A DNA stretch of 64,000 nt. It comes from Alphaproteobacteria bacterium. GTDB lineage: Bacteria; Pseudomonadota; Alphaproteobacteria; UBA7985; JAUIBT01. How positions within the stretch are numbered: the first letter of the stretch is position 1; every line of letters starts with the position of its first letter. A program made the position numbers and the translations under genes. The stretch spans positions 1 to 64,000 of the forward strand of contig JAUIBT010000013.1 of NCBI GenBank assembly GCA_030428255.1. The letters run 5' to 3'. Below the pieces are notes generated by a model. It saw only the letters and a list, made by a program, of their open reading frames with translations. It made no database searches and was not told the DNA's origin. Of this stretch, positions 3-44,162 are shown piece by piece.

Positions 3-125
3 TACCTAAAGGCAACCCTTGAGGCAATCGCCGCGGGCCACCCCGCTAGCAGGCTTGACGAATTGCTGCCTTGGAACTTCCAGCAGTCAAGATGAAATCC
101 CTGTGGGACCCAGGCAACGCATACA
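3..125 (+). mobile_element. Right end of an IS66-family insertion sequence (transposase C-terminus, partial)
   Basis: In the frame starting at base 3 the window opens inside a coding region that stops at 93-95 (TGA). The peptide ends in HPASRLDELLPWNF followed by QQSR. The pattern 'HP..R.DELLPW' is the characteristic extreme C-terminus of IS66-family transposases (family knowledge). About 30 nt after the stop the sequence GGACCCAGGCAACGCATAC (106-124) looks like an IS66-type terminal inverted repeat read outward; its complement begins GTATGCGTTGCC, and IS66 ends usually begin GTAAGC. I place the element boundary at about 124/125. The left end and the 8-bp target duplication lie outside the window, so the boundary is an estimate. 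The element abuts the giant repeat-protein gene and probably interrupts it. Confidence 0.8.
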
Positions 126-3100
126 TTTTAGCAGCTACACGGGTGCAAAAGCCGGCTTGATCCAGTGGTCCGGTCAGAACTCGACAACGGGCAGCAACAT
201 TTTTCGCGAGCTGCCCTTGCGCGACGCCAATTTGAATGTGCAAAGCAGCTTTTTGTCTGAAAATTATGACAGTCTGCTGGCGACCAATTATGGGCCTGAG
301 AACCGAGAGTTCAGCACCGGTACGCGGCCGGAAGAAGCGCAGCTCTTCTTGAACGAAATCATCCTTGGCGGCTCAAGCTATACGGCGCAAAGGAAGTCGA
401 GCACAACTGGGCGTCGGGCTGACGCCTCACAATTGGTGGTGTTCTTGACCCAAGCCAGTGGCAACGAGTTTGCTGACACCTGGGCGACCAATGCAGAAAT
501 CCTGCGCGACAACCTCGACAACTCCTATCTGATGATGGTGTTGATCGACAAGGCCGAAACCGCCTATCGAAACGCCGAGTCCGGCAACGATGGTTTTGGG
601 ACAAACACTGCTGCCGACGGCGCAACTGCAACCCAGATTTTGAACGGTGTTGTGGGGCTGCCAGAAGGGACCACCGTCGCTGCGGCAAATGCCTCTGGGC
701 TCATACAGGGCCGCGAGGGCGGGATCTACTTTGCAGGCGACTATGCGAGCTTGGACGGGGTGGCGCTGGCCAATATCCTGTGCGAAACCGCTGTGCAGAT
801 CGCACCGATTACGGTCAACAACGTGACGGTGTCTGAGGCCTCAGATTACATGGTCTTTACGCTGCAAGCCCAGGCAGGTCGCATCATTGATGCCATTGAG
901 GTCACCGGCCAAAGCGCAACGCTTGGCGTGGACACCAGCAGCGGGATGCAGGTCTACGTCGGCGGTGCCTGGCAGGACTATGACGGCACCAGCGATCTGA
1001 CAGTCGATAGCTCCGATGTGCTCTACATTCGCATGGCGGTGAACAATGACGAGGTGCCGGAAGGCTCCGAGAACCTAAGGCTCACGGTTATTCCGGCTTT
1101 AGGCACCGAAACCAGCGGCATTGGAACAATCGTTGACGATGGCAGTTCGGACGAGGTGTTTGCGGGCGATGATCGCACCAGCTCAACGGGAACAAAAGAC
1201 GACGACTATGTCGTTGGCGATGTGCATGTCAGCGAGGCCTCGCCCTACCTGGTGTTCAAGATCTCAGGGCATGCTAACCGCAACTTGACCGGTTTGACGC
1301 TGTCGGACGGGCCCGGCACCGGCAGCGCGCGTGCAGTGGTTGGTGTCGATACCCACAACCCGGACACCACGGCCTTGCAGTATTATGACAGCGATGGTGG
1401 TGGCAGCTGGCAGAACTATGCCACCGGCGATACCGTGAGCATTATGAGCGACGGAACGCTCTACCTGCGCACCGCTGTGACCCAGGACGATGACTTCGAG
1501 GGCCCGCACGCTTTGACCCTAGAGGTGACGCCGCGCGTCGGAGTGGTCAAGCAAGGCATCGGTACGATCTATGACGACGGCAGCCTTGGAACGCAATTTA
1601 GCGGTGACAGCAGGCAGCCGTCTTCCGGCACCAAGGACGATGACCGGCGCATTGCGATCAACGATGTGCGCGTGTCTGAGGCCTCGACCTATTTGGTGTT
1701 CCAGGTCACAAGTCCTGACGATGTAACCAGCGATCGCTTGGTAAAAGACTTTGCCTTGAGCGATGGCCCTGACAGCGGTTCCAGCACCGGCAAAGGGATT
1801 GCCGTTGTTGGTACAGATACTCAGAACCCGGGCAGCGGAGCGCTGCAATACTACGACGCTCTTGCCTCCGCGTGGCGCGACTACACCAGCGGCCAAACCC
1901 TCACCATACCGGCCGGTGGAACGCTCTATATGCGCACCGCTGTGACCCAGGACGATGACTTCGAGGGCCCGCACAATTTCAGTTTGACGGCCAAGTCCGT
2001 CGAAGACGCCGCGCGCACGGGCAGCGGCGTCGGAACACTTGTCGATGATGGCAGCGAAGACGCAGTCTTCAACGATGATGACCGCAGTTCGAGCCCTGGG
2101 TCTGTGGACGATGATCGGCCTTTGGCGGTCAACGATGTCCAGGTCTCTGAAACCTCGCCCTACATCGTGTGGCAGGTGACCTCGTCCGCAGGGCGCAACT
2201 TGTCTAGCATTGCCTTGGCCTCCGGCACCAGCGGTACAGCGGCAACCCCTGGTATCGACACCGCCGACGCCTCGGGCAGCACGCAGTTTCAGATCTACGA
2301 TGGCAGCACTTGGGTGAATTACAGCGGCAGCGGCTCGATCACGGTGCCCAGCTCTGGCAGCCTCTTTGTGCGCACCAAGGTGCAGCAAGACAGCGTGTAC
2401 GAAGGCCCTGAGACCCTTGAGCTCAGCGTGACGCCAAGCGTGGGCAGTGGCGCCACGGGCACCGGCACAATCTATGACGATGGCAGCGTGGACACAGAGT
2501 TTCCAGCCTCTGGACCCGGCGAGACCAGCGGAGAGTCCAAGGACGCTGACGACGACCGGCCCTTGGCGGTCAACAATGTCAGCGTTTCGGAGGGCTCGCC
2601 CTATATCGTCTTCAAAGTGACGAGCGGGCAGGGGCGGGTCTTGACTGATTTGGCTCTGTCAGATGGCCCGGGAACCGGGGACGCCAAGGCGGTCATTGGA
2701 ACGGATACCAGCAACGCTGGAACGGGCGTGCCCCTGCAAACCTACGTGAGCGGCACCGGCTGGACGGACTACACGCCCGCGAGCCAGATCACGGTAGATT
2801 CCAGCGGGCTGCTGTATGTCCGCACGGCCATTGTTGACGACGCCCCCTATGAAGGCCCGCACGTCTTCACCTTGACAGCAACGCCCCTAACCGGCACCGC
2901 TGCGACTGGTCAAGGCACCATCTATGACGATGGCAGCGAGCGCCCGACCTTTGGTGAAACGGACACCAGCTCCGCAAGTACTTTGGTCAACGATGACAGG
3001 CCAATCACGGTCAACGATGTCTCCGTTTCCGAAGCCTCGAGCTATATCGTCTTCACCCTGACTGGCACAGCGGGACAGGTGATCAATGGGCTTGGCCTCA

Positions 3101-6100
3101 CCAGCGGCACGGCAAGCGTTGGCGTTGACACCAACCATCTCAACGCCTCCAGCGGGCTTCAGGTCTATGACCCGGTTTTGGTGCAGTGGAACGACTACAC
3201 GATTGCCAGCGAAGTAACGATCCCCAGCTCTGGCCTGCTCTATCTGCGCACGGGCATCGCTCAGGACAGCCAGTTCGAAACCGACCCAGACCCAGAGGCC
3301 TTCACCGTCACCGCAACCAGCAAGGGTGGCTTGTCTGCTACGGGTACAGGCCGCATCTATGATGACGGCAGAGAAGACACGGTCTTTACCGATCCAAGCC
3401 CCCAGCCAACCGTTGGCACCAAGGACGACGACCGCCCCTTGAGCGTCAATGACGTATCGGTCTCAGAATCGTCCAGCTACATTGTCTTTAAGATCAGCGG
3501 CGACGCGGGTCGTCTGCTGAGCGATCTCAGCCTGGCGGACGGAACGGCGACCATTGGCGTTGATACGCAAAACGCTGGGACCACACCGCTGCAATACTGG
3601 GATGGCGCGGCCTGGAAAGATTACGCCTCTGGCATGACCTTGCCCCTGCTGAGCGATGGGTCCGGCGGCGGCGAGATGTATGTGCGCACGGGCATTGTGC
3701 AAGACAATGCCTTCGAGACCGACCCAGACCCAGAGACCTTTACGCTGGTGGTCACGCCAGATGGCGGCGCGGCTCCAAGCTCGGGCACTGGCAGCATTTA
3801 TGACGATGGCAGCGTTAATACGACTTTTCCAGATCCCGATCGCTTGCCGTCGCCTGGCCCTGCTGACGACGACCGTCCCATTGCGGTGGGCGATGTCTCG
3901 GTGTCTGAATCGTCCGCTTATATCGTGTTCAACGTGACAGGCCCGGTTGGTCGGGCCATCACCACCGCCGGTCTCGGCTGGACGGCAAGCGGCAGCAAGC
4001 CGCTGACGCTGGGCGGAGATGTTGGCACCACCCTCAAGTGCTACAATCCTGACTCCGGCAGTTGGAATTCGAACACCGCCTGCGATGCCCTGTATGACGA
4101 TGGCGCGGGCGGCGGCGAGATGTACCTGCGCACCACGGTGATCCAAGATACGCCCTACGAAGGCCCGGAGACCGCGACGCTGACCGTAACACCGGTGACC
4201 GGAGCGGCAGTCAGTGGCATCGGCACAGTCTACGATGATGGCAGCGAGGACACCGAATTCCCCGCCACCGGACCAGGAGAGACCGACGGAACACCGGGCA
4301 CAGCCGACGATGATCGCCCCTTTGAGGTCAACTCGGTGTCGGTCTCAGAACTCTCGCCCTACCTTGTTTTTGAAGTCCACGGCATCGGCGGCTTTGAGCT
4401 GGACAGCCTGAGCCTGGCCAGCGGAACATCGGGCAGTGGCGATGCTCAAGTGGCGTCTAGCGCAAGCTTTGCTGCGGGCGATGATACCCAGTATCCGGGC
4501 AGCTATGAGCTGCAATATTATCAAGAGACGGGCGGCTGGACCGACTACAACGGCAGCGACAACCTTAATCTTCCAACCAATGGCATCTTGTACGTGCGTA
4601 CGGCTGTCTACAACGACAACGACAGCCCGGTTTATGAAGGTCCAGAGAGCTTTACTCTGACGGCAGTTGCCGCGTCCGGCGGCACCAGTAAGGTCGGCAC
4701 CGGCACCATTTACGACGACGGCAGCGAAGACACGGTCTTTGGCGAGGCCGATCACCAAGCACAGATCGGCACGGCAGACGACGACCGAAGCTTGGCCGTC
4801 AACAACGTCACGGTGTCCGAGGCATCGCCCTACATTGTCTTTGAGGTGAGCGACAACAGTAAGCGCGACGTCACCAGCTTCTCCTTGACCAGTGGCACGG
4901 CAACGGTAGGCACCGACACGAGCGCCATTGGAACCTTTGGGGTCGGCTATTATGACGGCAGCGCTTGGCAGGTGTTTGATGGCACGGCGATCAGCTTCCC
5001 CGCCAGCGGACCGCTCTATGTGCGCACCGGCGTGACCCAAGACAGCGCTCTTGAGTATTCTGAGAGTTTCACCATAACCGTCACCTCAGGGACCGCCAGC
5101 GCCACCGGTCGCGGAACCATTGTTGATGATGGCAGCAACGGCACGACCTTTTCGGCCGACGATACCACGCCGCTATCAGGCGTCGCCGACGATGATCGTG
5201 GCATTCAGGTCAACGATGTCACCGTGTCTGAGGCATCCCCGCATATCGTCTTTCAAATCACCAGCCCGGACGACAGCAGCCAGCCGCGTGCCATCTCCAG
5301 CTTGGTGTTGAGCGATGGTGATGCGGGCGATGGTGCCTGTACGGGCACCTGCGTTGCGACCACCTCAGGCGCTGACGCGGACACGGGCACCTCGGTAGAT
5401 CTGGAGTACTACAACGGGACCACTTGGGTTGACGTCGCGGGGGCCAACCTCAGCATTCCGGCGGCAGGCACGCTCTTTGTGCGCACGACGGTGGTGCAAG
5501 ACGATACGCTGGAATTTGCGCACAAGTTCACCCTAAGCGCGACGCCAGCGACCGGCAGCAGCGCGCAGGGCATCGGAACGATTGTTGATGACGGCAGCGA
5601 ACCGCGCGTCTTTGCCGGAGGCAGCCGCACGGCGACCAACGGCCTTGCCGATGATGATCGCGCTTTAAGCGTCAATGATGTCTGCGTATCGGAAAACTCC
5701 ACCTACATCATTTGGACCATCAACGGCGGCACGGACAGCGCCAACCGCAAGCTCACCGGCATCAGCCTTAAAGGCAGCAGCACCGGCACCGCCGCGATTG
5801 TCGGTGTCGATACGCAAGACGCGAAGACGGACTATCGGTTCAAAACGAGCAAGGCGGGAACGACGGGAACTTGGGCCTTCTATAACGGTGTCGGCGAGGT
5901 CACGCTGAGCAGTTCCGGCTTGCTCTATGTCTATACCTTGATCGAAGACGACGACGACCTGGAAGGTGTGGAGGGCTTGACCTTGATCGCCTCGCCAGTG
6001 ACCGGCGGCGCTGCATCCGGCCAAGGTTACATCTTCGATGATGGCAGCACCACAACCAGCCTGTGTGACGACATCCGCATTTTTAATTCTAAAGATGTAC

Positions 6101-9100
6101 CAGGGACGGTCGTTGATGAGACCAACGTTGATGACGATCGCAACCTGTCGATTAACGATGTGAGCGTGTCTGAAAGCTCGAAATACATTGTGTTTCAGCT
6201 CACAGCGCAAAGCGGGCGGGTGATCTCTGGCTTGGCGCTCAGCAATGGATCGGCGACCGTTGGCACGGACACAAGCGACGCTGGGACGGGCGTTGCGTTG
6301 CAGTACTACGACAGCGCTACCAGCGGCTGGCTGGACTTTGTGGCTGGCACAACCAGCATCACAGTCGATGCCTCGGGCCTGTTGCATATGCGCACGAAGA
6401 TTGTTCAGGACGCTGAAGACGAGGGCGCGCATGACTTTACCCTGACCGTCACGCCGCAATCGGGCTCGCCTGTTACCGGCACCGGCACGATCTATGATGA
6501 CGGCAGTCTGCGCCCGGTATTCGGCGACGACAGCAGGGCCGCAACCGGCACGGCACGCGATGACGACAGACCAATTTCGGTCAACGATGTTAGCGTCTCT
6601 GAGGCGTCGCCCTACCTTGTCTTTGAGCTGCGCTGTGGGACCAGCGGAACATGCAGTGCTGACCGCGATTTGGGCGGAGCCAGCTTGGCCGGTGCGCTGG
6701 AAGACAGCAATCAAACCGCGACCTTGGAGGCGGACACCCGCGATCCTGGCAGCTCAGCGCTGCAAGTCTATGATGGCGATAGCAAGACTTGGGTGGATTA
6801 CGATGGCAGCAGCCTGCTGACAATCCCGGCAGGGTCACCCCTTTATATGCGAACCGGCATCGTCCAGGACAGCACCTTGGAGATGGATCAGACGACCACA
6901 CCTTGGAGCCCGGAAACCTTTACCTTAACGGCGACCGCAGCTTACTCGGACGCTGAGGCGACGGGTACAGGCAGCATTTATGATGATGGCTCCCAGGATC
7001 AAGTCTTCGAAGGCAACAGCACGCAAAGCACGGCAGGCTTGGCGGATGATGACCGGCCCTTGCAGATCAACAATGTTTCGGTCTCAGAGGCATCGCCCTA
7101 TATCGTCTTTGCTCTGACCAGCCCCGGGGGCAATGGTCGCAAGATACGTGGTTTGACCCTGGCGGATGGGACTGCAGCGCCGACCGCCACCATCGGCACC
7201 GATACCAGCAATGCGGGCAGCCAGACGGCTCTGCAAGTTTATTTACGTGGGGCCTGGGAGGACTATGTGCCCGGCAGCATCGTCGCCTTGGAGAACGACA
7301 GCGGCGACGGCGTGTTGTACCTGCGCACTGCCATCGTCCAGGATGACACCCTGGAAACTGACATCAGCCAGTCGCCTTCGGTGCCCGAGACCTTTACCTT
7401 GACCGCGACCCCCCAGGCGGGCTCGGCCGTTGTGGGCATCGGCAGCATCTACGACGATGGCAGCGAAGATACGGTTTTCGGCGCTGGTGACACCACGCCC
7501 CAAACCGGAACCGCAGACGATGACAGAGACATAGCGGTCAACTCGATATCGGTGTCAGAGGCTTCGCCCTTTGCGGTGTTCGAGGTGACGGGCCACGCGG
7601 GGCGTCTGGTGAGCGGTCTCGGGCTGACCAGCGGGACGGCGAACGCAGACACATCTGCCGCGCAAAGCGATCTGACAAAGGCGGGCAGCACGGATCTGCA
7701 AGTGTGGAGCGGCACGGCTTGGGTCGATTTTGATGGATCAATGCCGGTGGCAATCCCGAACATCGGCAAGCTGTATGTCCGCGTTGGCATCAGGAACGAC
7801 ACCCCCGCGGTTTTTGAAGGGCCGGAGACCTTTACTTTGACTGCGACCCCGCTTGCTGGGCGCCAGGCGGCAGGCACTGGTACGATCTATGATGATGGCA
7901 CCCCGGCACCGAGCTTCCCTGACCAAGATCCCAGTGTTCCGCCGACGAGTGTCATCGAGGATGATCGCGACCTTGCGGTTAATGATGTGTCCGTATCTGA
8001 ATCCTCGCCTTTCATCGTTTTCAAGGTTAGCGGACCTGCCGGGCGCACCCTTAAGGACATGGCGCTGAGCAGTGGCTCAGGCGCAGGCGCTGCGGCGCTG
8101 GGCACTGACACGCGCAACGCGGGCGCGACTGCGCTGCAATACTTCGACGAGACAAGCGGCGCTTGGACCGACTACGAGCCAGGCACCAATGTCACTATTC
8201 CCGAAGGCGGCACCTTGTATGTGCGCACCGGCATCAGCAACGACGACACCTATGAAGGCCCGGAAAGCTTCAATCTGGACGTGACATCTCTTGAGGGCGC
8301 TCGGGCCAGCGGGACGGGCACGATCAAGGACGATGGCACCGAAACCAGTGTCTTTGACGATGAGGACAAGGAGCCCAAGCGGGGCAGCTTGGATCACGAT
8401 CTTGCCATCGCCGATGTCACCGTTGCAGAGACCGCTGGGCATATCGTGTTCACCGTCACCAGCGGTGCCAGCACGCGCGTGAGCCGCATCCTCGTGACCG
8501 AGGGAACCGCGCAGGCTGCAGTTGATTATGGCGTTGACATAGAGGTCAGCACTGATGGCACCAACTGGACCAGCTATGAGACCGGCGTTGACGCACAGCT
8601 GAGCAACGAAGGCGATGGCACGGGCAAGCTCTATGTTCGCATGGCGGTGATCAACGACCAGCGCAAAGAAGGCGCGGAGACCTTGACCGTAACCGTGACC
8701 AGCCAAAGCGAAACCGCCTCGCAAGCGCTGGGCACAATAACGGACGAAGAAGACCAGGGCGGCGACCCCGCGACCTCGACCTGTCGTGTGGTGTCAGCGA
8801 CGACACAAACCGGTGCAGCCGCCACCACCGTTGTCGTTTCTCTGCAGTCGCGTGACGCAGGCGGCAACGCGATCAACGGCGGCGGGGAGCTTGTCACCTG
8901 GGCCTCAAGTCCGGCTACCACCTTGATCAAACAGACCGATAACGGCGACGGCAGCTATTACGCTTACCTCAGTGTGCCCACCACCTACTCGGAAGTGCTT
9001 GTGACGCCCACGCTTGGCGGCGAGCCCGCCTGTGCCGGGTTCACAATCACCCTCACACCCTTGCTGTCGATCACCCAAGAGGTTGGCGTGCCAGTGAACG

Positions 9101-12100
9101 ATTTTGTGCGTTACTGCAAACTTGCCGAGTTTCGCTTCACCGTGACCAACACCGGTTCGGTCGATCTGTCCGAAATCAGCATCCAGAACGATCTGTTCCA
9201 AACCTTTGGCATTCGCTTGGTCGCGGTGGACGCGGTGCGCATGACGACCAGCAGAAGCGCCACCAACAAGGTCAATGTTGATGGCAGCGGTGCCTTGCTG
9301 TTCGACGGCGATACGGACGTTGAGATCATCCAGACTCCAGACACGACCTTGCTGGTGTCAAATGCTTTGATGCAGCCCGGTGAGAGCATGAATTTTGCCA
9401 TGGACGTGTGTTTTCGCACCTTTAGCAACTTCACCTACCGGCCAACCTATGAGTTTGAGAATGTAATCTCAGTTGTTGGCAAGGCGTTTTCCGGCCTTGG
9501 CACAGAAAGCCAAACGCCTGTAGCTAGGCCGCGAGCCCGCAGCTTGAGCGCGGACGCCATCGCTGCCGACCCTGTGGTCACAATCGCAACCGCAGCTGAC
9601 GCTACACCGGCGTTGGTTGACCCGACCGGTATCATTTTCGACGGCGTGACCTCTCAGCCCGTTGCAGGCGCGCTGGTGCAGCTTTGGACGCAAGCGGGCC
9701 AGGTGTCCGAGTCCTGCCTCATGCCCGGCCAGTACAACCAGACAACCGACCTGGATGGCAAATACGGCTTTGACATCAACCCAGGCTGCTACCCAAATCA
9801 GACGCAGTTTGAAATCAAGATCGTGCCTCCGCCGGGCTATTCGTTCCCGTCAAATGCGCGACGTGATGAGGCCATCGCTGGCGGCGAAAACATCCCGACA
9901 GCGGCGAGCCAGGCCAACGGGATCTATTCGATCGGCAATGACAAAGCGCCGCCAACCCCGGATCGCGATGGCGTCTATGCGCTGAGCTACACCTGGGGCA
10001 GTGGCGATGCACTGGTCATTGACAATCACATTCCGATTGATCCAACCGGGGACTCCGACACCATTGTTGTGACCAAGAAGGCCCTGACCACCAAAGCGGC
10101 GTTGGGCGATATTGTCCAGTACGAGCTGACGGCGACCAACGTCGGCACCAGCCCCATCTCTGGCTTTCGCATCAAAGATACGCTGCCCCAACAGCTAGGC
10201 TACATCAAGGGCTCGTCCAAGATCAGCTTGAGCGACGCCACCTACCAAGTCATCCAAAGCGAGCCGAACATCGATAAGTATAACGTCATGACCTGGAAGA
10301 TCGAGGGCGGGAACGGCGCGGCAATCGGTGCTTTGGTCTCTGGCTCAAGCATGACCGTGCGCTATGCGGCTCAAGTTGTAGACACAGCCAGCCTTGATGC
10401 GCTGACCAACGTCGTTGGGATAACCACCACGCTGGATGAGCCCATTGGCAACACGGCCAAAGCCACGATTGCGCTTGGCGACCAACCCTTCTTCGAGTGC
10501 TCCTCGGTGCTGGGGCGGGTGTTTGACGATACCAACGGCAATGGCATTCAAGACAGCCCAGAAGAGGCCGTGGCGGCGTCAAGCAGGACGACATCGGGCG
10601 GCTTTTGGTCGTGGCTGATGGGTGAGGCCGCTCAGCCCGGCCAACAGCAGCCAAGCGAGCGCGCTATCTCTCCAGGAGAGCGCGGACTTGCGGGTGTGAA
10701 GCTGTTTACGGTCAACGGGACTTGGGTCACAACTGATGAAGACGGGCGCTTTAGCATTCCTTGTGCTGACGTTCCCAAGTCGGCCTTTGGCACCAACTAC
10801 CCGATCAAGGTCTTTGAGCGCAGCTTGCCTGTAGGCTACCGCGTCAGCGGTGGCAATCCAAAACTGGTTCGTTTGACCCGCGGCCTGTCTCAGCAACTCA
10901 GCATCGCGGTGAGCAAGTCGTCTGGCGGGCGCTTGGCCAGTGGTGGTGCGGGCAATTCTGCCATGACCTTGTTTGGCGTCCCCATCAGCGGGCCCGAGGA
11001 CGCCGCGGGCGGCGGCGCGGCACAGGGTAAGTCTGGACCGGTCTATCTGGGCCTTGTCGATCTGCGCGCAGGCCTGATCGAAAGCAATTTGGCGAGCGTG
11101 CAAAAGCCGTCTGACGTCGGTGTTAGCGGCAGACTTGCGGTCTACCTGAAAGGTATGATTGCTGGCGAGGTTCTGCTGACCTTGATGGCCGACACGGGCT
11201 TGGGCGACGTCGACGGCTTGATCTCTGGCTTTGAGCAGAAGACTGCGCGCGAGATGCTCAAGCGGATCGACCCCGACGGCTATTACCCCGTATTCGGCGA
11301 CGGCTCATCGCTGTACGAGGACGCCCCGACCTCCGGCAAGCTCTATGTGCGCTTGCAGCGTGAAGCCTCTTCGATCACCTGGGGCAACACGCAGTTGGGC
11401 CTGGAATACAGCCCCTTTGTTGCGGACCACCAGACAATCTATGGCGCACAGCTTGACCTCAATTCCTCCGCCAAGGCCGAAGACAGCGGCACCACGAGCC
11501 GCGGCGACCCCAAGCAGGCCCTGCGCGCCTACTACGCGCCACATCAGACCGGGCACACGACCGAGCTGCTGCACGGCACAAATGGGTCGGTCTACTTCTT
11601 GCGCAATACGGATATTCAGATCGGCTCGGAGCTGATCGAGCGCCAGTGGCGCGACCCCATTTCGGATCGCGTGGTCCGCAGGCAGGTCTTGGTTCGCGGC
11701 GATGATTATGAGCTTAACTATATGGCCGGGCGCCTGTTGCTAACCGCGCCTATGGCATCGGTTGAGCTTGATCCGCAAACCGGCACCCAGCTCAATCACC
11801 TCCTGTTTGTCTCCTATTCCTTTGCCCTCAACGATGTCTTGACTCAACACGCGCTCTATGGCGGTGAGGCCAGTTTGTGGGTGTCCGACAGCGTGCAACT
11901 GCGCGGCTATATCCAAAATAAACAGCAACAGGACGGCGGCCTGAATGTCACCGGGGCGGGGGTGACCTTGGCACCCTTTGATCAGACGCGGCTGTCGTTG
12001 GATTTGGCCTATAGCAAGAGCCTGGGCGTTGAGCAGTTCCGCTCACACGATGGCGGTTACACCTGGCAATCGAACCTGAAGCCTGGCAGCCAGCGGATGA

Positions 12101-13656
12101 ACGCGCGCGGCTTCATGTCGAGCTACGAGACCCAATTTGGCGAGTGGACCGGCGATGACCGGCCGGGCTCTTTGTCGGCCTATTTCAACAGCTTTGAAGC
12201 AGGCTTCCGCGACGCACAGCGCAGCGTTGAGCGCGATCGCAACGAGTATGGGGCACGGCTGTCTGCGGCGATCAACCAGGAATGGGGCCTGAATTTGGGC
12301 TTCAGCGCCGTGAGCGATTCCGACAAACAGCAAAGCCGTGGCAGCTTGGATGCGGGCTTAAGTTTCCAGCTCAGCCCCGAAATTTCGACCGCGTTTGGCG
12401 CCAGCCGCAACTGGAGCGGGGATGAGGCCAGCAGCGGGCTCTATGGCAGTATGGCGCTTGCTGTGAGTCCCGATCTGCGGCTCGGCGTTTCAGGCGACAT
12501 CGATTTGGGCAGTGGCGCATTCGGCGTTGGCGCGACGCTGGGCTTACAGCTCACCTCAGACATCAGCCTTGATGTCGGGTTGGGTGCGGCAGACGGGCAG
12601 GTCGGTCTAACCTCCAGCCAAATCCAGCAAGTGGGAGCGGACGGCAACGCCGCCTACCTGCGCTGGGCGGGAGGGCAGCCCAGCTCGCGGCGCCACGGAG
12701 CGACCGGATTTGAAACCGGGCAAATCGTCTTGGGCAATCGCTCCATCTTGGAGGACGGCAGCACGGTCTTCAGCGAAACCGCCTTCTATACCAAAGACGG
12801 GCAGGCGAGTGGCACCACCAACAGCTCGGGCTACAGTTTCGAGCCGTTCGACGATTTCCACCTGGACCTGTCGCTGGAATTCGGAGAAGTGGACGCCAAC
12901 CGTCGTCAGGCGGTCTCTGCTTCTGGGCAGTGGCAAACCCCAGTGTTTGCGATGCATCCGCGCCTGGAATACCGCCGGGATCGCGACCTTGGCACGGGCG
13001 AACTGCGCCAAACCCTGCTCAACAGCCTGCGACTGACTGAGACCAATTCAGACGATTGGGCGCTTGAGGCCTATGCGCAAAGCATTCTGTCCTACGACAA
13101 CTACGCCAATGGCAGCAGCGATCAAGTCGGCTATGATCAGATCTTGTTTGAAGGCGGGGTGTCGGCGGCCTATCGACCCGTGACCAACGACGCATTCAAC
13201 GCCCTGTTGACTTATGACTTTGTCTACGAACTGCCCCCAGACTCGCAGGCCGCGCGCGATGTGATGCGGCGCAGGGAGCACCAGTTCGCCACCGAAATGT
13301 TCTGGAACGCCAGCGCCGATCTCAAACTGTCGGGCAAGTATGCCTTTAAGGTTGGGAAGATCAGCACCGATCGCAGCAGCGATATTTGGTTCGATAGCTC
13401 GGCCCAGTTGGCAATTGCACGCATGGAACTGTTTGGCGATCAGACTTTCTCTGTCTCCGTCGAGGGCCGCGCAATGCACTTTACCGCCAGCGATCTTTGG
13501 AACGTCGGCGCGGTGCCCTACCTCTACACCAAAATTCCAGGTCAGGACGCCTTGCGTCTGGGGCTGGGCTATAACTTTGGGGGAATCGGGGACGATCTGT
13601 TTGCCGCCGAATACGATCAATCGGGCTTCTTGGTAAACCTAGTCGGCGCCTGGTAG
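126..13656 (+). pseudogene. Giant repeat surface protein with C-terminal outer-membrane beta-barrel, 5' end cut by IS66
   Basis: About 4,500 codons are open with no internal stop. A formal TTG start exists at base 19, but it lies inside the IS66 element and no signal peptide follows, so I treat the gene as a 5'-truncated remnant. Residue numbers below count from base 19. Residues ~40-255 resemble the later part of a von Willebrand A domain (strand AGLIQWS, strand LVVFLT, strand YLMMVLID); the first strand with the DxSxS MIDAS motif is missing. Residues ~264-2910 hold 18 Calx-beta-like repeats. An invasin/filamin-like Ig module follows (~2920-3010), then DUF11-like modules (~3015-3160 and ~3346-3490) and SdrD-B/carboxypeptidase-regulatory-like modules (from ~3200 and ~3494, GRVFDDTNGNGIQD). 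The last ~850 residues are a probable beta-barrel: a YYPVFGDGS motif near 3755, alternating hydrophobic strands, and a terminal Trp typical of outer-membrane proteins. The intact protein would be a cell-surface adhesin or fibre. Whether the truncated gene is expressed cannot be told. Confidence 0.75.
809..8750 (+). repeat. 18 tandem Calx-beta-like protein repeats (~147 codons each)
   Basis: Eighteen units begin with variants of VNDVSVSEASPYIVF (units start near 809, 1209 and 1650, and the last near 8400). Each continues through a TxxVGxDTxN segment, a Y(D)..W.(D)Y segment, LYVRT.I.(Q)D and GTGTIYDDGS. Units are joined by Asp-rich linkers of the form DDGSEDTVF...DDDR. Acidic linkers and DD motifs suggest calcium-stabilised beta-sandwiches, as in Calx-beta domains (inference). 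Units 2 and 3 share an identical 44-nt stretch (1466-1509 and 1931-1974), a sign of recent duplication or gene conversion. Units 6 and 7 share the FETDPDPE insert. Confidence 0.9.
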
Positions 13657-42938: not shown

Positions 42939-43295
42939 ATGAAAACCAAAGTGATTTGCTCAGTCTTGATCTGTGTGTCTGTCTTAACGATTGCGAGCTG
43001 CTCGCGCCGCAACAAGGTCGATAATGCGGTCAACGATGATGACATTCTAGCTCCCCTTCCGGCCCCTGTGTCGCAAACCAACGTTCCGGCTATCCCAGTC
43101 GCTGATACCGGTTTGCCGCCAAGCGTGCCCGTTGGAGTGCCGCAGCAGGTGGTTCGAGCGCCTGTCCCGGCCCCAATCAATCAAACGGTGATTAGCCAAC
43201 CTGGACTTGCGCCCCTGCCAGCGCCAAGCGGCAATTGTGATGTCGTGCCGACCAGTAAATCCGGGCTGGTTCAGTTCCGCCGCAATTGCCTGTAG
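42939..43295 (+). CDS. Small Pro-rich lipoprotein (paralogue 1, C-terminal PTSKSGL motif)
   Basis: A 118-residue predicted lipoprotein. The signal peptide MKTKVICSVLICVSVLTIAS is followed by the lipobox cysteine (ASC). The body is low-complexity and rich in Pro, Val and Ala. The C-terminal 19 residues carry CDVVPTSKSGLVQFRRNCL, closely matched by the gene at 43673. The two Cys could form a disulfide in the periplasm. I do not recognise the family. The ATG at 42939 is preferred to GTG 42927 because it starts directly at the charged signal n-region. Confidence 0.75.
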   Translation: MKTKVICSVLICVSVLTIASCSRRNKVDNAVNDDDILAPLPAPVSQTNVPAIPVADTGLPPSVPVGVPQQVVRAPVPAPINQTVISQPGLAPLPAPSGNCDVVPTSKSGLVQFRRNCL

Positions 43296-43359
43296 CGGCC
43301 CTTAAAACATCGATTCAAAATAGAGTATTCGGGCCGCCAGGCCCATATGCACCCCACGG

Positions 43360-43398
43360 CCCTGCCGAGCTGACTTGCAAGTCAGCTCTGCGGGGTTT
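43360..43398 (+). terminator. Rho-independent terminator after lipoprotein 1
   Basis: A 22-nt perfect palindrome (GAGCTGACTTG and its complement, 43367-43388) is extended by a CCC.GC/GCGGGG outer stem and ends in TTTT. It closes the lipoprotein 1 transcript. The remaining sequence up to 43672 probably carries the promoter of lipoprotein 2; I see nothing else there. Confidence 0.9.
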
Positions 43399-43672
43399 TG
43401 GCGGCTGCCGTCCTACAGGTGCTCAACCTTGAGCGATGATCACTCGGCACGGCCTGGCCCTGGCTCGCTCAGCCGACCAGCGATGCGCCCCACTCCCTGA
43501 CCGCAGAACAGGAACGCCTTGACCACAAAACGCCTGTCAGCTTCATAACAAAGTGCAGGTCTTGCCAACTTTAGGTCGAGTTTCCCTGTTTAAACTCTCT
43601 TTATTGCCGGACCGCAGCCCTCTGGACAGCAGCCCTGTCGTCCCACTGTTAATGCAATTTGAGATAGATTTT

Positions 43673-44104
43673 ATGGTTAAGAGATATTTGGTCGGCGGTC
43701 TTGTTACTGCCGCTGTTTTCGCTGGCGTTACGGGCTGCTCTCGCACCCCCGCACAAACCGCGACCAACGACATTTTTGCACCGACAAGCGTGCCAATGGC
43801 GAGTACGCCGGTGAGTGAGCCCATCATCGCAGCCATTCCGGTCGCAGGTGCGTCTAATGTGGATTATGCACCGACGCCTGTGCCGACCGAGATGTATCAA
43901 CCTGGCGTATATCAAGCCGACGTGTATCAGCCTGTGGTGGTGCCGCCTGCACAGCACGCTCAAGTTGCGCCGCTGCAGCCCGCTCCCCTGGTAGCGCCTC
44001 CGCTAGTTTCCTCAGAAGCTCCTTTGGCTCCGCCCAGCTTTGATTGTAACAATATTCCGACATCAAAATCAGGCCTGACCCGCTATCGCGAATCCTGCCT
44101 GTAG
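43673..44104 (+). CDS. Small Pro-rich lipoprotein (paralogue 2, C-terminal PTSKSGL motif)
   Basis: A 143-residue predicted lipoprotein. MVKRYLVGGLVTAAVFAGVTGC forms a signal peptide with lipobox VTGC. A Pro/Val/Ala-rich middle contains a short MYQPGVYQADVYQPV repeat. It ends CNNIPTSKSGLTRYRESCL, the same 19-residue motif with paired Cys as paralogue 1. The ATG at 43673 starts the signal peptide; the open frame upstream to 43553 is discounted. Tandem duplication with conserved tail and divergent body implies the tail is the functional part. Confidence 0.75.
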   Translation: MVKRYLVGGLVTAAVFAGVTGCSRTPAQTATNDIFAPTSVPMASTPVSEPIIAAIPVAGASNVDYAPTPVPTEMYQPGVYQADVYQPVVVPPAQHAQVAPLQPAPLVAPPLVSSEAPLAPPSFDCNNIPTSKSGLTRYRESCL

Positions 44105-44133
44105 ACGCGAGCCAAGCGCTCGAGTCCCTTTTA

Positions 44134-44162
44134 GACGCCTTGGTTTTCAGCCAGGGCGTTTT
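44134..44162 (+). terminator. Rho-independent terminator after lipoprotein 2
   Basis: ACGCCTTGG and CCAGGGCGT pair with one G-T wobble around a 6-nt loop, followed by TTTT. From here to the permease start (44453) I see no further structure I can name and no recognisable riboswitch. Confidence 0.75.

Follow-up and report, generated by a model that had tools for sequence, protein, structure and literature searches.

What are two adjacent small lipoproteins with almost the same C-terminus made for? The question is raised by the genes P0001 (42939..43295, + strand) and P0002 (43673..44104, + strand), which lie in a stretch of 64,000 nucleotides of an alphaproteobacterial genome that was analyzed as a whole and is called the window here. 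The reading of this locus as two neighboring small lipoproteins was confirmed. Both open reading frames are found at these positions and each product carries a signal peptide followed by a lipobox recognized by eye, IASC with the lipidated Cys21 in P0001 (118 aa) and VTGC with Cys22 in P0002 (143 aa). In the sequence of P0001 the lipobox cysteine, encoded at 42999..43001 (+), is followed by Ser at position +2 (IASC-S). A Pro-rich linker then leads to a single C-terminal module in both proteins.

The final 19 residues of P0001 (CDVVPTSKSGLVQFRRNCL) and P0002 (CNNIPTSKSGLTRYRESCL), described as nearly the same by the sequence-only reading, are indeed identical at 11 of 19 positions, above the best C-terminally aligned 19-residue identity of 8 that was reached by chance in 20,000 shuffles of both mature sequences. 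A search of the own genome with P0001 recovered P0002 (E 6.8e-6), and the PTSKSGL-like stretch, searched for as a degenerate codon pattern, turned up in the tails of P0001 and P0002 only (G000, the genome of the window, 58 contigs, 99% complete). The many differing synonymous codons in the two tails argue for a conserved protein and not for recently copied DNA. For P0001, the comparison of G000 with G002 gave a dN of 0.087 and a dS of 1.23, and in the tail 14 synonymous codon changes without any amino-acid change; dN/dS of the orthologues in G001 and G002 against G000 is about 0.07-0.09. Codon changes in P0002, counted as amino-acid versus synonymous, were 1 versus 14 in the tail and 31 versus 47 in the body. 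The P0002 orthologue in G002 shows 74% identity and full-length relatives in G004 and G006 show 44-45%. Both genes are real and under purifying selection.

Each gene had been credited with its own terminator, which is plausible. P0001 is followed by a hairpin at 43352..43404 (+; -36.8 kcal/mol, z -5.53) with TTTT directly after its inner stem, and P0002 by a hairpin and then a T-rich stretch at 44133..44161 (+; within a 67-nt stretch of -29.7 kcal/mol, z -3.49). A simple terminator scanner listed neither of these likely terminators and named 44108-44122. The pair is flanked by a LamB/YcsF-family gene and a xanthine/uracil permease gene, neighbors that give no hint of an envelope function. This order is kept in G002; in G001 the contig ends right after P0001.

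A profile search with the tail, the check suggested at the outset, brought up more lipoproteins of this type. Profile A1 combines six tails, those of P0001 and P0002 and of relatives from G001, G002, G004 and G006. Across the 11 genomes of the order it found, beyond its own rows, a third, shorter paralogue in the same genome (YDCSVVPRSKSEIAEYREKCL, E 1.5e-5, G000:C22), present also in G001 and G002, and a G003 open frame of 311 residues that carries the tail three times (E 2e-8, 6e-7 and 1e-4). Weak matches (E 0.012 and 0.27) fell into a 387-residue open frame of G009, in which three copies are visible by eye and whose product is related to the triple-module protein of G003 (E 2e-24). A1 also gave matches of up to E 1 in other frames; these were at chance level and were dropped. 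The tail is a module of 21 residues with the consensus C-x3-P-T-S-K-S-x-L-x2-Y/F-R-x2-C and a C-x16-C spacing in every copy. Profile A3 (14 rows) counted 16 copies in 12 proteins from 7 of the 11 genomes, all with E below 1e-9; since these copies are in the profile or near-identical to its rows, the result should be read as a tally rather than as a test. The same holds for the module of P0001 (GNCDVVPTSKSGLVQFRRNCL, 43230..43292, +) at the extreme C-terminus, whose E values of 1.7e-17 and 3.9e-12 come from two profiles that both include its own row. The module of P0002 (FDCNNIPTSKSGLTRYRESCL, 44039..44101, +), identified by profile match, likewise forms the extreme C-terminus.

Two parts of the initial description had to be modified. 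The tail is terminal in P0001 and P0002, and the last copy reaches the C-terminus in all 12 proteins, which end with the second cysteine plus one residue, but the triple-copy proteins contain internal repeats of it. Modules 1 and 2 of these proteins exclude a C-terminal sorting tag as the sole reading. Similarly, the tail is conserved but it is not the only conserved part. Four of five representatives carry a box of the type [N/D]DI[F/L]AP (in two cases DIFAP alone), 10-13 residues downstream of the lipidated cysteine; sequence comparison places it at 43038..43055 (+) in P0001, as DDILAP, and at 43766..43783 (+) in P0002, as NDIFAP. Among the five representatives checked, the short paralogue (YDCSVVPRSKSEIAEYREKCL) is without it. 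Modules 1, 2 and 3 of the G003 protein (L068 8078-9001, -) align by position with modules 1, 2 and 3 of the G009 protein (L069 8626-9681, +), and the triplication therefore looks older than the split of the two.

The two cysteines are the only invariant residues across the 14 rows, and downstream of the lipidated cysteine none of the 12 proteins has any cysteine other than the module pairs. AlphaFold2 modeled the last 31 aa of P0002 (16 aligned rows) with a mean pLDDT of 77 and a single helix at residues 20-30, which covers the second half of the module. The model of the triple-module protein was poor (pLDDT 39) and its helices at the modules carry no weight. Disulfides can form, given that 10 of the 11 genomes of the order have DsbB. 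The module is probably closed by a disulfide around a short helix. At the other end, a lipobox was found in 12/12 module proteins (pattern and eye). According to the sorting rules for lipoproteins, a residue other than Asp after the lipidated cysteine favors the outer membrane. In five proteins measured this residue is Ser, Gly or Leu and never Asp, so that by these rules an outer membrane location is favored. The linkers of the five proteins measured span 40-130 residues and are Pro-rich in P0001, P0002 and the G006 protein and acidic, with DDPFA-type repeats, in the G003 protein, which differs in this from its relatives.

The module was new to all resources searched. P0001, P0002 and four homologues remained far under the cut-offs of Pfam-A and NCBIfam, with the best scores on signal peptide or low-complexity parts. 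A PDB sequence search with the module returned nothing better than E 1.1, and a PDB fold search gave no match at E up to 10; the end of a known domain was rejected on these results. With further homologues found and no known domain end matched, neither of the objections foreseen against a new short motif applies. In 381 genomes of the class outside the order we found no credible module match (A3, E<=0.02; sample of 385, four of them from the order). At this threshold three genomes of the order and five others matched, and the five (E 0.0035 to 0.016) were dropped after frame-by-frame reading as partial and unconvincing. The best of them, L100 1123-1677 (-), contains a stretch PRSRSELRQFRWFCL that resembles the module (E 0.0035) in a protein that ends, by eye, in a J-domain; this likeness is probably convergent. 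In a sample of 398 genomes of the phylum, which overlaps with the class sample, G000 alone matched at E<=0.005. Profile matches at E<=0.1 outside the order were rejected as short or unlikely frames in the eight loci read, and no match was obtained in viral contigs. The string PTSKSGL was absent from the literature searched, which lay mostly outside subscription journals. The module proteins are a real, unnamed lipoprotein family, confined to one alphaproteobacterial order as far as searched.

A conserved neighbor of the family had been proposed as a further lead. No transpeptidase gene lies beside P0001 and P0002, but homologues elsewhere in the genome adjoin one. In 7/7 module-bearing genomes a module lipoprotein gene is convergent with an adjoining L,D-transpeptidase gene (G000:C22, G001:C142, G002:C19, G003:C20, G004:C22, G006:C392 and G009:C29); given this orientation, the two do not form one operon. 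In the genus of the window the enzyme-adjacent position is held by the short paralogue and not by P0001 or P0002. P0001 and P0002 are paralogues of the enzyme-adjacent lipoproteins at another locus, and P0002 is a full-length relative of those in G004 and G006. The transpeptidase is the sole gene of at least 100 aa that is common to the three families within 6 kb (E 1e-8), with only 35-40% identity of the enzyme among families and all other neighbors exchanged. Beyond 6 kb, an FMN-reductase-like protein of G006 resembles that of G003 and G009 (32-37%). A cysteine-pair pattern, run over 30 loci of other L,D-transpeptidases of the class, brought up no tail-like lipoprotein outside the order that convinced by eye. 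Near the short paralogue, the frame L070 2749-3918 (-) encodes a protein that matches the LprI family over cut-off and SH3_3 below threshold.

The partner enzymes have about 500 aa and combine YkuD and Scaffold domains (PF03734 and PF20142), over cut-off in the three of seven partners that were scanned. They match YcbB in the PDB by sequence (6ntw, 7aj9) and their HxxS...SSGCxR-type catalytic motifs are intact. By these sequence criteria they qualify as putative L,D-transpeptidases of the LdtD/YcbB type. They differ from known LdtD/YcbB enzymes in that the clade has diverged, and outside the order its best matches in the class are for the most part limited to the catalytic half. A relaxed pattern, His...SSGC[VI]R, is present in 34/34 L,D-transpeptidases of the order; matches to such transpeptidases number 2 to 6 per genome. 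In a quick tree of these 34 enzymes (the short or partial G000:C24, G001:C191, G002:C10 and G005:C12 were left out), the seven partners and three enzymes of the window's genus (G000:C42, G001:C182, G002:C101) formed one clade with an SH-aLRT of 98; eight of its ten members are in alignment A5. The latter three adjoin no module lipoprotein. The best tree does not unite the seven partners by themselves and implies two changes for them; a single clade was not rejected (p-AU 0.08), and the tree program warned of long branches. At L131 3069-6235 (G000:C42), the second clade transpeptidase of the genus adjoins a gene for an OmpA-like lipoprotein, as judged by eye, and another lipoprotein gene is near.

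Presence and absence of the two genes go together. All four genomes without the module (G005, G007, G008 and G010; drafts with a completeness of 94%, 82%, 79% and 72%) also lack the clade transpeptidase. In G003 and G009 lipoprotein and enzyme are both present at a site with genes for a hydrolase, an FMN-reductase, PEPCK and a ketoacyl synthase. In G005 and G008 the order of these flanking genes is kept, with about 55-82% identity to those of G003 and G009, and both cassette genes are gone. This empty site was seen in two of the four module-less genomes; the PEPCK marker was not found in G007 and G010. Between G003 and G009 the enzyme is 50% and the lipoprotein 29% identical, while, of five flanking genes compared, three share about 80% identity and the other two 54-60%. 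A transpeptidase pair outside the cassette shows 58%, so the fast evolution of the cassette is only partly special. We regard the functional link between the family and the transpeptidase clade as good but unproven. For the module, a loop that binds peptidoglycan or a partner protein had been suggested, and the neighboring enzyme points no less to a cell wall partner protein than to the wall.

Under stress, L,D-transpeptidases remodel the cell wall, and most beta-lactams have little effect on them. We propose, with a confidence that falls a little short of an even chance, that P0001 and P0002 are outer-membrane lipoproteins that work with this one LdtD/YcbB-type clade and position or stimulate the enzyme. 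The lipidated cysteine would anchor the protein in the outer membrane, and the Pro-rich or acidic linker would serve as a flexible, disordered tether. The terminal loop-helix module, putatively closed by its disulfide, could then dock on the transpeptidase and position or stimulate it near the outer membrane. The displaced pair of the window may serve the same enzymes in trans. This role is the best supported one, because the transpeptidase is the sole conserved neighbor and because both genes are jointly missing from a conserved site. Descriptions of outer-membrane lipoproteins that partner L,D-transpeptidases are few. DalA was the one found in the literature searched, mostly without subscription papers, in which nothing like the module surfaced. 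According to its description (PMC10470522), DalA (RSP_1200), a lipoprotein in the outer membrane of Rhodobacter sphaeroides, co-precipitates with the L,D-transpeptidase RSP_1199, its loss lowers 3-3 (tri-tri) cross-links, and the downstream gene RSP_1201 encodes another predicted L,D-transpeptidase. DalA, for which such a role has been proposed, is a precedent for a lipoprotein that would position or assist an L,D-transpeptidase. The likeness is one of description only, between alphaproteobacterial lipoproteins that are both assigned to the outer membrane, in our case by prediction. The locus tag of DalA is next to RSP_1199, whereas here the transpeptidase adjoins one paralogue in all seven genomes and not the window pair. 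DalA is reported in 93% of Rhodobacterales genomes (PMC10470522), while the module was found in the window's order only, among the genomes searched.

A lipid anchor, a tether and a small terminal module would also have the right geometry for a peptidoglycan-binding tag, that is, a non-covalent staple between outer membrane and wall that needs the transpeptidase only for the wall structure it recognizes. Avidity could come from the triple modules of G003 and G009, and DalA is described as binding peptidoglycan non-covalently (PMC10470522). Nevertheless, known wall-binding domains are unmatched, 21 residues are very small for a binder of glycan or stem peptides, and a general wall binder need not disappear together with one enzyme; we consider such a tag unlikely. 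Very doubtful, in our view, is that the lipoproteins are covalent, Braun-type substrates with a module lysine as acceptor. Lys follows PTS in 13 of 16 copies, at least once in each of the 12 proteins, and the attachment of lipoproteins to peptidoglycan is known for some L,D-transpeptidases (PMC12729407). Yet Arg or Gln takes this position in three of the six copies of the triple proteins, the ends of cysteine plus one residue offer no C-terminal Lys, and a partner with a Scaffold domain belongs to the YcbB/LdtD type, which is known for cross-linking rather than for lipoprotein attachment (PMC12729407).

The gene pair itself could have been inherited from a common ancestor without functional meaning, and the lipoproteins would then have another role in the envelope. 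With 11 genomes, all from one order, independent events are few; the two genes converge, and the copies in the window are located elsewhere. We find this reading improbable, as the pair was kept while all other neighbors were exchanged between families and the enzymes diverged to 35-40% identity, and as both genes are absent together at the conserved site. Finally, that nothing but the two cysteines is invariant would suit binding of a metal or cofactor, or redox chemistry, in place of a structural disulfide. Such a function appears highly improbable, with no conserved His or CxxC companion and DsbB in nearly all genomes.

The proposed positioning or stimulation of a transpeptidase can be compared with two further systems. 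LpoA and LpoB are lipoprotein activators of penicillin-binding proteins. They resemble the module proteins as outer-membrane lipoproteins with a flexible tether to a cell wall synthase, but their target is a PBP and they have a folded C-terminal domain, whereas the module proteins have no Pfam match. Braun's lipoprotein Lpp is likewise a small lipoprotein whose function is linked to L,D-transpeptidases. Lpp forms a coiled coil and ends in a Lys, in contrast to the low-complexity linkers and Cys-plus-one-residue ends of the 12 module proteins. LpoA and LpoB are also mentioned in the DalA study (PMC10470522). A bolder generalization, to which we give rather low credence, is a new class of dedicated lipoprotein cofactors of L,D-transpeptidases, with a minimal, disulfide-closed docking module of about 21 residues in single or triplicate form, gained and lost with the enzyme as a two-gene cassette. 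If true, lipoprotein control of 3-3 cross-linking would become directly testable, with single and triple modules and natural genomes without both genes at hand.

Elsewhere in the 64-kb window, no Rfam family or tRNA was detected. An open frame of 4545 aa (19-13656, +), with one DUF11 at about residues 3349-3482 as its sole Pfam match at E<=1e-5, probably encodes a giant surface protein.
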